Assembly (NCBI RefSeq): GCF_005877885.1
Contig: NZ_VCHY01000027.1
Span: 1 to 61,434, forward strand
Length of the DNA stretch: 61,434 nucleotides
DNA from: Labilibacter sediminis
GTDB taxonomy: Bacteria > Bacteroidota > Bacteroidia > Bacteroidales > Marinilabiliaceae
Reading direction: 5' to 3'
The notes below the pieces were generated by a model. The model saw only the letters and a list, made by a program, of their open reading frames with translations, was not told where the DNA came from and made no database searches. Position numbers and translations under genes: made by a program. Shown here one piece after another: positions 14,801-54,521 of this stretch (positions are counted from its first letter, which is position 1; each line of letters begins with the position of its first letter).

Positions 14801-15027
14801 TTTTTTGACCATTTGAATTTCCACTGCCCATTTAAACTCTGGAAATTACCTGACTTACTTTTGTTGTATGTATTAGCTTTTTCTTTTGAATCGTAAACCA
14901 TCATAGTTGTATGAGGTTGTTCACGATTAACCTGTAAAACTTTTACATTATCCCATTCTGGTTTCTTTTTACCATGTATTACCATCATTACCGAAAACAA
15001 TACAAATACCACCAACAGCTTCTTCAT
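11899..15027 (-). CDS. GH2 beta-galactosidase (LacZ-type, five-domain)
   Basis: The start at 15027 is chosen for its signal peptide ([19 protein letters not shown]); the longer frame from 15078 runs through the L repeat element. The protein is about 1042 residues, the usual length for LacZ-type GH2 enzymes: jelly roll ([12 protein letters not shown]), Ig-like domain, TIM barrel, Ig-like domain and a C-terminal supersandwich. The acid/base is Glu472 in SMGNESG and the nucleophile Glu538 in [10 protein letters not shown], numbered from this start. It hydrolyses terminal beta-galactosides, here probably periplasmic. A hairpin (AGCTCCC...GGGAGCT, 11893-11914) spans the stop codon. The 5' end contains an L element. 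Confidence 0.9.
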
Positions 15028-15115
15028 GAGTCTAAAATTTGTTTTTAATTGCCACATGGAACTCGCCAACTTTGACATACTCCTTCGTAAGAGTTTTTCT
15101 CATGGCTCGTTTCAT
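15023..15115 (-). mobile_element. L element copy at the start codon of the GH2 gene
   Basis: A 93-base copy bounded by ATGAA at both ends (minus-strand ATGAA at 15115-15111 and 15027-15023). The inner end is the start codon of the beta-galactosidase. It shares ATGAAACGA at the left and GAGTTCCATGTG...CATGAA at the right with the other copies. The middle is diverged but holds its own hairpin (ACTCTTAC/GAAGGAGT). The first ATG opens a 27-codon frame that stops four bases before the gene's ATG. Confidence 0.75.
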
Positions 15116-15736
15116 ATAATAATTTGTTTTATCTTGAATAATTATACCTTAATGAGCATTTTTCCTAATGGAGAGTGAAATTATCAAAGGTCTTTAAAAG
15201 TATAATATCAGACCAAACTCAACATTGTGTTTAAAATGCTTTTTTTTCTAATTGCAAGGTCCGAAAACTAACGCCAAACACCTAGTATGTATTTTTCAAA
15301 TCAGGAGCGTTTTTCATTCAAATAACCAATAATACGGTATTCACCCATAGGGTAGAATACTGTCACCCCCAAGTGACTAAAACCTAACTATCAACCACTT
15401 GATTAAAATCAAAAAGACAATAATCTAAATAACCCGAGATGCACAACAGTCAAAAAAATAAACTTGTTTAAACAATTTTATCAAACTTATAAACAGCTAT
15501 TCTTAAAAAGTTTTTAGGTAATATGATGAAACATGGAAGTTAATTTACCTAACACTTAACGCTACTACATCAACCAACTTATTAAAAAAACTACTTTCTT
15601 TCTTTATCCAATTTACATCTGCAATGTCATCTATTGCAAATATTATTTACAGAAACAACCACAATTTAGGGTACAAAAAAAAGTACAACGCTACATAAAT
15701 AATTATGAACACATTGCACTTTTTAAAACTATGGGA
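15116..15736. other. Intergenic region between susD and the GH2 gene
   Basis: About 620 bases without a credible reading frame. It should contain the promoter of the GH2 gene, but no convincing TAnnTTTG element or terminator stood out. Confidence 0.4.
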
Positions 15737-51700: not shown

Positions 51701-51944
51701 AGATATTTTTTAATAACCTGTCCCGAATATTTAGTCCGGATAATACAAAAAGAGCGGCATTGAGAATAAGATCTTAATTTTAGTGAAACTAGAGATACTA
51801 ATTAGAGTCTGCCTATAACCTAAGGGCTTGAAATATGAAGCTCAAATACGAGGCTTGCGAAGTCAGAAAATCCAAGGAGTCTACTTTTGTAGATGACTGT
51901 TTTCATGACGAGCGTAACGAAGTAGTTGACTTTATAGACAAGCA

Positions 51945-54419
51945 CTAATTATTCTTGATAATTTTCTCCGTAACCACCATATCATCTATGTGGTACGATA
52001 CGAAATACACACCACTCATAAGATCTGAAAGACTATAGCGTTGATTCTTGGTATCAGCGTTAAATAACTTTATGGTTTTACCAGATAAATCTCTCAAAAG
52101 AACCTCACTATTTATGTCTATCTCATCTATGGTGATACTATGATTTGTTGGATTGGGAAAAACATTTGTCGACAGATTGAAAGCCTCGTCAAACACTGCT
52201 AGTGGACTATCTTTTAAAACAGCATCCATTTTAAAAAACAGTTTATCAGCAAATTCACTTGCCCCGTCAACCGAAAAATGAACATCATCTGGCGATGGAT
52301 TTAAAGTTGTTTCATCAGAAATAGCATCGCCTTCGATTAAGAAAAGATTTTCGTCACCTGCATTAATTCGTTCATTAACAATATGCCTAACAACTTTTCT
52401 AAAATCTTCAGTTGGTATTCCTGTTTTGGTAGTCACAACATTTCTAGTATAAGTTAGTGTCAGGCAGAATATTTTTGTATTTGTATGCTTTTCACGAATA
52501 GTGTTCAAAAAGTTGGTATACCTCTCACTATAAGTAAGCGTATCTAATCCTCCTCCCATGGCGTCATTGTAGCCTATAAGCATGGTCATCACGTCAATTT
52601 TATCAAAATCATCACGAATCATTTCAGCCATTACTTGTGAGGTTTTTCCTCCACCAACAGCTGTGTTATACAATGTCCAATCAAACTTACGTGAAACGAT
52701 ATAAGGATAGGTCTCGTTGGTCATCGTTTGTCCACGCCCATGGGTAATTGAATTTCCATAAGCCAAATAAACCGGTTTTTCGCTTACTTCGATAGCAGAA
52801 AGATTATAGCCATTTTCTAATTCAAGACCTGAAAAGCTAACATTAGTCCAAAGTGGTAGGGTAATTTCATATTCCACTACCTCACCCGAATGCATAGAAG
52901 CAATGTCTAGCAATTTTTCCTGATTCTCAGCATAAGGACTGCTAATTTTCTCTACAAACACATCGTTTTGAAAAACGCCCCAAGAACAGCTTTGTGTTTC
53001 GCTAGGGATCATTCTGAACTTTGCTTTAACAGTAGGGCTATTGGTTTTGAATCTTACTATTATCCCTGAAGTTGTTTTAGCTTTTGATGGATTAAATAAG
53101 TTGATTTGCGTCGTATTTGCATAAACAGCATCAGAATGCCTATGAAGATTTAGCTCGTTATTAATGTTTGAAATGTAATTACTCCCTTCAATTATAATAT
53201 TCTCATGAGTTGGCGCAATCATACTGTAACCGGCTTCAATTCTAAATAATTCGGAAAGCGTAACAAACCTATAACCGGCATCACTTAAAGTGGAAAGAAC
53301 AGTTTGCAAAGCCTCTAAAGTATTGGCTCTTTCATGACAAAGAACAATATCACCAGCAGAAATATCAGCTAGCTCGGCTATGATTTCGGAAGGTGCAGGA
53401 CTGCTTGCGTCGCCAGCATAAACTTTGGCATTTACTGCAATTAAATTGTCCGTTGTAAGAACGCCTCCCACGCGATGATCTATCGGATCATTCTTCTGTC
53501 CATAATCAAGGAAAGGCGCACGAAAATATTTTGGCGTATAATTGAATTCCGATTGAAACAATTCTTGAAATCCACGAACTTCAGAAATTATATCGTCGTC
53601 AACTGCATAATCAGGAATACGCGCATGAGTCACTGAATGGTTTCCTATTTCATGTCCTTTGTTTAAAAGTTGTTGAACAATCTCCTTATTTTCACTCAGC
53701 TTATCACCTATATTAAAGAAAGTAGCACGACCATTATATTGGGCAAAAAGATCAATAAACTGCTGTGTTAATACAGCATCAGGGCCGTCATCAAACGTAA
53801 AAGCCACAACTTTTTCGCTAGTGGTAATTTTTGTAAGTGGAGTAACTTCTACGGGAACAATAACGCCTGGCTCCGGGGCAACATAACCATCTTCTAAAAC
53901 GGCATCATCGTAGTAATAATTTCCTGCATAACCTCCACACTGCAATACAAAACGGGCTGTTTCATATTCAGTACCTGTCTTATCTAATGTAAAGCTGTAT
54001 TCTTCATAAGTGTCAGTTAACTTTATTTCGCTGGATGCGAAATACTTTATCGTTCCACCAGACTCCACTGCCACAAGCTGAAATCTAAAACCTAAACCTG
54101 CTGCTACACCAGCAGCATCGGTTTTTGCGTGTACTTTTAGTGTAAAATTATTTCCTTGAACAGAATAATCACTTGACTTTACTCCAAATTTATTAATTAT
54201 TAAAGTCCCAGGATCTGTTGTCATTAAACAGGCTTGAGCATCAACATTCGCATCTGCTGTTAGAGCTGCAGTTCCGGTAACACCGCTCATTGAAACTTTT
54301 GTCCAGCCCGTAAGGCCGTCTTCAAAACCTGGATTACTCAGTAAATTTTGTGAAATAACTTGCTCTACCTGAACCAAGAACATAAATACTATAATCAAAA
54401 AAACTCTCTGTACTTTCAT
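51945..54419 (-). CDS. Bifunctional secreted esterase: polysaccharide deacetylase (CE4-like) fused to SGNH esterase, T9SS exported
   Basis: The start at 54419 opens a signal peptide (MKVQRVFLIIVFMFLVQVEQ); the frame upstream to 54470 only translates the L element. The order is a CBM4/9-like domain (SNPGFEDGLTGWT), then a NodB-type deacetylase at about residues 200-400 with the metal/catalytic Asp pair in AFTFDDGP, HEIGNHSVTHAR and RAPFLDYG. An SGNH module with its own beta domain follows (YLAYGNSITHGRG, VGGGKTS, IGYNDAM, DDVHFSVDG), and a T9SS tail (NVFPNPTNHSITI). The SGNH module is a paralogue of the genes at 31562 and 56439. It would strip two kinds of ester or N-acyl groups outside the cell. 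Confidence 0.88.
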   Translation of the reverse strand: MKVQRVFLIIVFMFLVQVEQVISQNLLSNPGFEDGLTGWTKVSMSGVTGTAALTADANVDAQACLMTTDPGTLIINKFGVKSSDYSVQGNNFTLKVHAKTDAAGVAAGLGFRFQLVAVESGGTIKYFASSEIKLTDTYEEYSFTLDKTGTEYETARFVLQCGGYAGNYYYDDAVLEDGYVAPEPGVIVPVEVTPLTKITTSEKVVAFTFDDGPDAVLTQQFIDLFAQYNGRATFFNIGDKLSENKEIVQQLLNKGHEIGNHSVTHARIPDYAVDDDIISEVRGFQELFQSEFNYTPKYFRAPFLDYGQKNDPIDHRVGGVLTTDNLIAVNAKVYAGDASSPAPSEIIAELADISAGDIVLCHERANTLEALQTVLSTLSDAGYRFVTLSELFRIEAGYSMIAPTHENIIIEGSNYISNINNELNLHRHSDAVYANTTQINLFNPSKAKTTSGIIVRFKTNSPTVKAKFRMIPSETQSCSWGVFQNDVFVEKISSPYAENQEKLLDIASMHSGEVVEYEITLPLWTNVSFSGLELENGYNLSAIEVSEKPVYLAYGNSITHGRGQTMTNETYPYIVSRKFDWTLYNTAVGGGKTSQVMAEMIRDDFDKIDVMTMLIGYNDAMGGGLDTLTYSERYTNFLNTIREKHTNTKIFCLTLTYTRNVVTTKTGIPTEDFRKVVRHIVNERINAGDENLFLIEGDAISDETTLNPSPDDVHFSVDGASEFADKLFFKMDAVLKDSPLAVFDEAFNLSTNVFPNPTNHSITIDEIDINSEVLLRDLSGKTIKLFNADTKNQRYSLSDLMSGVYFVSYHIDDMVVTEKIIKNN

Positions 54420-54521
54420 GTGTTTAAATTTATTTTCCAATGGACACATGGAACTCACAAATAAATTCAATCATCTCTCCCATGTATAAATTAGATAATC
54501 TAATTTTTATGCTCATTTCAT
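54415..54521 (-). mobile_element. L element copy at the start codon of the deacetylase-esterase gene
   Basis: A 107-base copy with ATGAA at both ends (54521-54517 and 54419-54415 on the minus strand). The inner one is the gene's start codon. The conserved right part GAGTTCCATGTG...ACACATGAA is intact. The left part reads ATGAAATGA, so the first frame stops at once. Inner arms pair over 13 positions with one mismatch and two G-U. Confidence 0.8.

Follow-up and report, generated by a model that had tools for sequence, protein, structure and literature searches.

The question raised by the 61,434-nucleotide stretch of Labilibacter sediminis DNA considered here (contig NZ_VCHY01000027.1 of assembly GCF_005877885.1, positions 1 to 61,434; in the following "the window") is how a short non-coding sequence comes to stand, repeatedly and to the nucleotide, on the start codons of unrelated genes. 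The window carries four copies of this element, named L, all on the minus strand: copy A (15023..15115, 93 nt), copy B (17241..17385, 145 nt), copy C (46531..46636, 106 nt), and copy D (54415..54521, 107 nt). Each is bounded by ATGAA, which appears as TTCAT on the plus strand, exactly as described in an earlier reading made from the sequence alone (the sequence-only reading). As judged from the copies compared below, L is a mobile mini-element, as that reading had proposed, because identical copies occur at unrelated sites and empty sites exist. We further regard it as moderately probable that L is non-autonomous and moves as a folded single strand.

Mobility and insertion site

Genome G006 contains at least six identical 95-nt copies with different flanks (six of its 40 matches were read), all of them open through the 51 codons shown, and one of the genes behind them looks coaD-like by eye. 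On the single contig of genome G230, three identical copies occupy differing kinds of site: the first precedes a gene that looks glycosyltransferase-like by eye, the second is in no frame of 110 codons, and the third (L259) lies antisense in an outer-membrane-protein-like (OMP-like) gene. Joining the flanks of L259 with a single ATGAA makes the frame of this gene whole, and the joined protein gives an OMP_b-brl_2 match (residues 4-138) spanning the insertion point at 126. Two identical copies stand at two starts in genome G116, and genome G004 shows a burst: 20 copies, falling into 12 kinds, are nearly identical (93.7-100% for those of equal length). Two of them are located in a miniature inverted-repeat transposable element (MITE), and 17 of the 18 others open at least 92 codons. 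Four further G004 regions are off-pattern, with ATGAA (L311, tandem), ATAAA (L321), or GTGAA (L323) as left 5-mers or with the left end lost (L322). The genes behind L copies are varied. About ten identical or nearly identical matches of the R1 search in G004 were rejected as independent moves, because they are carried within another repeat, and are reduced to one in the counts. This repeat of about 160 bp, starting with TAGTGGCTGCAAGAAAACG (L052-L058, L061, L062), has captured an L copy and spread it, and empty versions of it exist.

A view on the empty versions shows what belongs to the target and what to the element. AAGAA is present in all five empty copies of the G004 repeat, which read TTTGATAAGAA|AGCTTC or nearly so, while the filled repeat reads TTTGAT-AAGAA-ACGAAC...ATCATATGAA|AGCTTC. 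The left 5-mer is therefore that of the target and the right ATGAA the element's own, and the duplication of ATGAA assumed in the sequence-only reading has to be given up. Since an empty AAGAA corresponds to a filled AAGAA...ATGAA, the AT of the right ATGAA stems from L, and the crossover lies within GAA, the only sequence common to both borders of filled sites; judged by these sequences, a 5-bp target duplication is excluded. Insertion takes place directly 3' of a fixed short target kept on the left flank, as in IS200/IS605 elements. The proposed preference for ATGAA targets is borne out by the 73 copies whose borders were read in the host genome, with ATGAA on the left in 69 and on the right in all 73; it is also the left 5-mer in 117 of the 123 named loci, which were found by a pattern starting with ATGAA. 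AAGAA or TTGAA also occurs in this position, and in an Anaerophaga repeat the filled copy has TTGAA on the left, as has one empty, diverged stretch (L176).

Frames are restored at three intragenic sites once the flanks are joined. Copy C lies in sense orientation in the 3' part of a gene for an NADPH-dependent FMN reductase (PF03358), the 5' part of which occupies 46637..47083 on the minus strand; joined with one ATGAA, its flanks read ...SFYEYMKKGELRVDFQEELKAAIALFLS, and the FMN-reductase frame resumes downstream. Three homologues from sister genomes show 38-42% identity. Only the match of the G001 homologue (2-168) passes the insertion point; because the two other local matches end at residue 151 (a MAFFT alignment does join the ends of these two) and the Pfam domain also stops short, the interruption by copy C rests on the restored frame and one homologue. 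L128 interrupts a DUF6371 gene; its homologues on plasmids are too distant to show which 5-mer came first, and a scan of viral contigs found no homologues of it.

Guide, hairpin, and occurrence of the copies

L measures mostly 93-107 nt with both ATGAA counted and is arranged on the sense strand as target ATGAA | ACGAGC, hairpin, guide GTTCCATNNG, about 25 A/T-rich nt, and CNNATGAA | flank, the 3' side of the hairpin being followed in the consensus by G(C)GAGTTCCATNNG. The sequence-only reading was right in stating that L adds a new 5' leader and had missed the hairpin and the covarying guide. The following counts are based on 224 copies, 123 of which are the named loci; antisense overlaps, matches cut by contig ends, a few weak ones, and MITE duplicates were left out, some truncated model matches were extended by hand, and neighbouring tandem copies were added. 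Subsets served for covariation (195), folding (70, random), the upstream frame (201), and the match between target and guide (201).

The CATNNG of the guide pairs with the CNNATG of the element's own right end and covaries with it. Counted from the first base behind CAT and matched to the three bases preceding the right ATG, positions 1, 2, and 3 are paired in 189, 180, and 158 of the 195 distinct copies, compared to means of 80, 125, and 144 (maximum of 101 for position 1) after shuffling the right ends among the copies, a result that is not a probability because shuffling ignores their relatedness. Twelve fully complementary guide/end variants are present, three of them as single copies, and the commonest types are GTG/CAC, CTG/CAG, ATG/CAT, ACG/CGT, GCA/CGC, CCG/CGG, CAG/CTG, TCG/CGA, and ACT/AGT. 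RNAalifold recovered both the hairpin and the right-end helix from 33 host-genome copies, with double changes at 6 of the 16 pairs of the former and 2 of the 5 pairs of the latter. The GTTCCAT of the guide is also complementary, but for one A.C mismatch, to ATGAAAC, which consists of the left ATGAA and the element's AC; the predicted minimum-energy fold pairs the target with the guide in 57 of the 70 sampled copies and the right ATG with the guide in 60. The CGA/GAG foot is replaced in the G116 copies by ordinary pairs that continue the stem down to this point (by eye).

Copy A of the window represents the GCCA/TGGC hairpin type, with its left ATGAA at 15111-15115, the guide GTTCCATGTG at 15053-15062, and the right ATGAA at 15023-15027; its right end, CTCATGAA, has one mismatch to the guide. 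Copies C and D carry their left ATGAA at 46632-46636 and 54517-54521, their guides at 46560-46569 and 54445-54454, and their right ATGAA at 46531-46535 and 54415-54419, respectively. Copy B (left ATGAA 17381-17385, right ATGAA 17241-17245) has a hairpin loop longer by about 20 nt and a guide that contains a palindrome. The loop extension (of the kind ATCGNNAGATCGACGNAGT) recurs in a subfamily comprising copy B, L022, L023, L026, L036, and L042, and another of about 45 nt (GAAATACGAAGTATTCATGAACACC...) is found in the hairpin loops of L129, L130, L131, and L045 of the host genome. The GC-rich palindrome (GCCTGC..GCAGGC type, 17275-17291 in copy B) is placed between GTTCC and CATG of the guide and was also seen in L029 and in upstream copies at L030 and L064; similar palindromes occur by eye near the Y1-like genes L337 and L343. 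In L176, L189, L199, and L218 from Anaerophaga and Thermophagus, the left and right halves of L lie 250-400 bp apart, the intervening DNA being minisatellite-like or unrelated.

Searching the host genome at the nucleotide level yielded 41 L matches, and a profile model of 35 copies (A1), all picked with ATGAA at both ends, yielded at least 139 at E <= 0.01, which is a lower bound because 150 of 7898 first-look candidates were scored. The right-end pattern GAGTTCCATN{16,40}ATGAA occurs 106 times in this genome vs. once for the reversed control, and the left-end pattern ATGAAACGANCATG 64 times vs. none for its control; ATGAA-bounded L copies are far above chance. Note that copies with other borders may be under-counted, because queries and model were built from copies with ATGAA at both ends. 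Matches are present in 19 of 31 genomes (the host and 30 relatives), including 9 of 9 of the genus, and at a stricter cut in 50 of 247 genomes of the order. The named-genome scan, again with the pattern starting with ATGAA, found at least 115 stretches with L; among the 80 titles listed, 79 name Bacteroidota/Bacteroidetes or member taxa, ranging from Marinilabilia, Anaerophaga, and Draconibacterium to Parabacteroides, some of which we take to be Bacteroidota, and the remaining one is "Bacterium BMS3Abin03". Rfam 15 gave no matches in the window or at the L copies of eight named loci, and in searches of the PMC literature no paper among those listed, judged by title or start of abstract, described such an element.

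Start codons and competing explanations

The right-hand ATGAA opens a long gene in three of the window's copies, as had been claimed: a GH2 beta-galactosidase-like gene (11899..15027) behind copy A, a SusD-family gene (15737..17245) behind copy B, and a polysaccharide deacetylase plus GDSL esterase gene (51945..54419) behind copy D, all on the minus strand and assigned by Pfam. Copy C does not follow this rule, since it interrupts the FMN-reductase gene and its right ATGAA opens only 23 codons. Together with L259, antisense in the OMP-like gene, and L128 in the DUF6371 gene, it refutes a start-codon requirement; because intragenic copies exist, insertion needs no start codon. At starts, the copies do add a new leader and leave a start codon in place, as expected from the sequence-only reading. 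Mechanically called open reading frames (ORFs) begin inside copies A, B, and D, and L may therefore mislead start-codon calls in L-bearing genomes.

Among the 224 copies, the right ATGAA opens at least 50 codons in 154, is followed by another copy in 22, and does neither in 48. At this 50-codon rule, 154 of 202 L copies (76%) are start-like vs. 278 of 880 background ATGAA (32%) from the same loci, the background being gene starts or positions outside called genes by crude ORF calling; limits of 70 and 100 codons leave 258 and 236 of 880 vs. 150 and 149 of 202. The host genome alone has 50 of 64 copies at starts. We ascribe this enrichment to tolerance and self-targeting. Under a lenient rule, 13 of the 20 burst copies in G004 follow an older right end directly, compared to 9 of 57 ATGAA-start genes sampled; L315, one of the flagged copies, looks like a false call, and the MITE pair accounts for two of the 13 and may go back to a single event. 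Under a strict rule the values are 9 of 20 and 4 of 57. Where L has no older copy upstream, the three bases in front of it (target NNN) also match the guide fully more often than after shuffling: 28 of 153 copies do so, compared to 17.7 +- 3.2 in the shuffles, of which 1 in 2000 reached the observed value.

The same position would suit a cis-regulatory RNA leader, in which a CAUNNG/CNNAUG helix hides the start, the left AUGAA opens an upstream frame with coupled starts, and copies are recruited for regulation. Apart from the 154 of 202 non-tandem copies at starts, this explanation can draw on an upstream frame that stops within L in 182 of 201 copies (median 11 codons), on the right ATG paired with the guide in the 60 of 70 folds mentioned, and on the usual replacement of A at position -3 by C, initiation in Bacteroidota being described as responsive both to structure and to an A at this position (PMC6847099). 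L probably does alter translation, because the predicted helix pairs the start codon, and this together with C at -3 may be expected to lower initiation in the phylum; the 5' leaders rewritten by L are those of the GH2 and SusD genes here and of the coaD-like gene (by eye) in G006. As an account of the element itself, however, we consider the leader improbable: the helix is also kept off starts (all three pairs in 31 of 38 copies vs. 104 of 136 at starts), copies of the same sequence are found in front of unrelated genes or within genes, the genes behind them are varied, Rfam gave no match in the window or at the copies of the eight loci, and regulation, which is possibly a by-product, leaves mobility unexplained.

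The remaining alternatives accept mobility and differ in the machinery. An ordinary MITE, mobilised by a DDE transposase and flanked by a target-site duplication of 3 bp (GAA), would be short, non-coding, and present in high copy, with GAA at both borders of filled sites, as observed for L; but the ends of L are not inverted repeats of each other, and neither the covarying guide/right-end helix nor the ATGAA preference has a role in this scheme, to which we assign little weight. The core of integron attC sites is AAC/GTT, which is resembled by the foot ATGAAAC/GTTCCAT, and the stacking of copies next to older ones would also fit a tyrosine recombinase mobilising a folded single-strand site. 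We know of no attC site with a guide covarying with a distant end, however, nor of ATGAA as an integron core, and hold such a route to be highly improbable. Movement via RNA, by reverse-copying an L transcript into DNA nicked at ATGAA, agrees with most copies standing in sense before their gene, but L259 is antisense within a gene, and this route also appears very unlikely to us.

Mechanism, candidate enzymes, and known systems

If L moves as a folded single strand, the guide would bring the right end, and then the target ATGAA, to one cleavage-and-joining site, as in IS608. Because L ends in target sequence, insertion behind a start ATGAA would rebuild the start codon; since such insertions would be tolerated and survive, and the rebuilt CNNATGAA would be a better-paired target for the next copy, copies should stack at gene starts. 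The likeliest catalyst would be a putative HUH/Y1-type enzyme, and HUH-type single-strand transposition in trans is favoured because guide pairing, fixed target, fixed orientation, and folded strand follow the logic of IS608. We put forward only tentatively the more extended proposal that L represents a widespread Bacteroidota family of single-strand start-codon cassettes, each with one guide for reading both its own end and the target, with guides re-coded along with the ends and an orphan Y1 HUH protein as enzyme, with the NRGIN-type L334 (G004) and L337 (host) as possible candidates; taken jointly, these parts are rather doubtful. If true, they would describe an insertion system that nature has re-programmed and that comes to rest at translation starts.

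As to the enzyme, the Pfam family PF01797 is matched in 25 of 25 genomes of the order with at least three L, vs. 170 of 247 overall, and in 43 of the 50 with any L. Intact members of a Y1-like clade are present in G004 and the host and provide a candidate only, the G004 protein reaching 20.4 bits (cut-off 23) for PF01797 and 59.8 (cut-off 80) for RAYT. No obvious palindromes were seen around the Y1-like L333, L334, and L344. The R1 search at Y1/RAYT-like genes gave 4 matches in 2 of 23 loci and 1 match in 22 loci, with 2 further matches among L072-L101 and L046-L047. RAYT genes were rejected as partners in view of other palindromes around the RAYT-like genes of the genus (by eye) and the few R1 matches nearby. 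Two near-identical tandem RAYT genes with a shared palindromic leader, the first one cut short, were noticed at L106 (G005:C26). IS200-type TnpA genes near L (L048, L097, L225) were taken as chance neighbours, and the IS200-type loci L079 and L301 were discarded as partners, showing other repeats. An autonomous L with a gene between its ends was likewise dismissed, as solo ends look decayed, cut, deleted, or minisatellite-split, with not every interval translated; the idea of a recurrent neighbour gene was abandoned as well, the largest clusters looking SusC/TonB-, GH-, sensor-kinase-, and SusD-like by eye.

Several points weigh against the movement of L as a guided single strand. In addition to the relatedness of the copies, which the shuffling of right ends ignores, the correlation between target and guide is modest and may stem partly from the decay of older copies upstream. 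Four other empty Anaerophaga stretches read TTGCA (twice), TTGGA, and TTGTA, and the sites leave room for a 3-bp GAA duplication by another kind of enzyme. Replication-strand bias was dropped as evidence because it does not discriminate, the 59 of 85 copies (from 100 of 128 places, MITE copies left out) being barely above the 103 of 176 genes. No transposase or recombinase shares the L ends or recurs beside L in the loci fetched; PF01797 is without a match in 7 of the 50 L-bearing genomes (each with 1-2 L) and in G014 with its 15 L matches, and the four matches in the burst genome G004 are broken or short. Finally, IS200/IS605 guides are located 5' of the hairpin, one per end, whereas L has one guide 3' of one hairpin.

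Compared to known systems, L shares with IS200/IS605 the insertion behind a fixed short target on its left and a guide that pairs with its own end and can pair with the target; the IS608 guide is described as base-pairing both with the target and with the cleavage site of the element itself (PMC5934647). The covariation of CATNNG with CNNATG likewise suggests an IS200/IS605-like pairing of the L guide with its own putative cleavage site. L differs in having one hairpin instead of two, in a right end that ends in the target sequence itself, and in that no tnpA was seen between its ends, and membership is not claimed because the guide stands on the other side of the sole hairpin and no linked enzyme was found. 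Since guide and end covary, the DNA-DNA pairing by which IS608 chooses its site seems to have undergone natural re-coding on many occasions. Bacterial MITEs resemble L in being short, non-coding, presumably mobile in trans, and next to genes; unlike them, L lacks terminal inverted repeats (ACGAGC... vs. ...CNNATGAA) and a 5-bp target duplication. Repetitive extragenic palindromes (REPs) are described as palindromes of 20-40 bp that carry a GTAG or CGTC tag and in most cases lie downstream of genes (PMC3733652); their tag can guide the choice of the cleavage site by TnpAREP (PMC8266576). L is likewise a high-copy non-autonomous hairpin, as in REP/RAYT and REPIN systems, but is about 100 nt long, lacks the GTAG/CGTC tag, and is enriched at gene starts; a transposase gene flanked by GTAG-type tagged palindromes was not found for L, the RAYT flanks carrying other palindromes. 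Some Y1 HUH subclasses are listed without a known REP-type substrate (PMC6006769), and L may serve as a testable candidate substrate for them.

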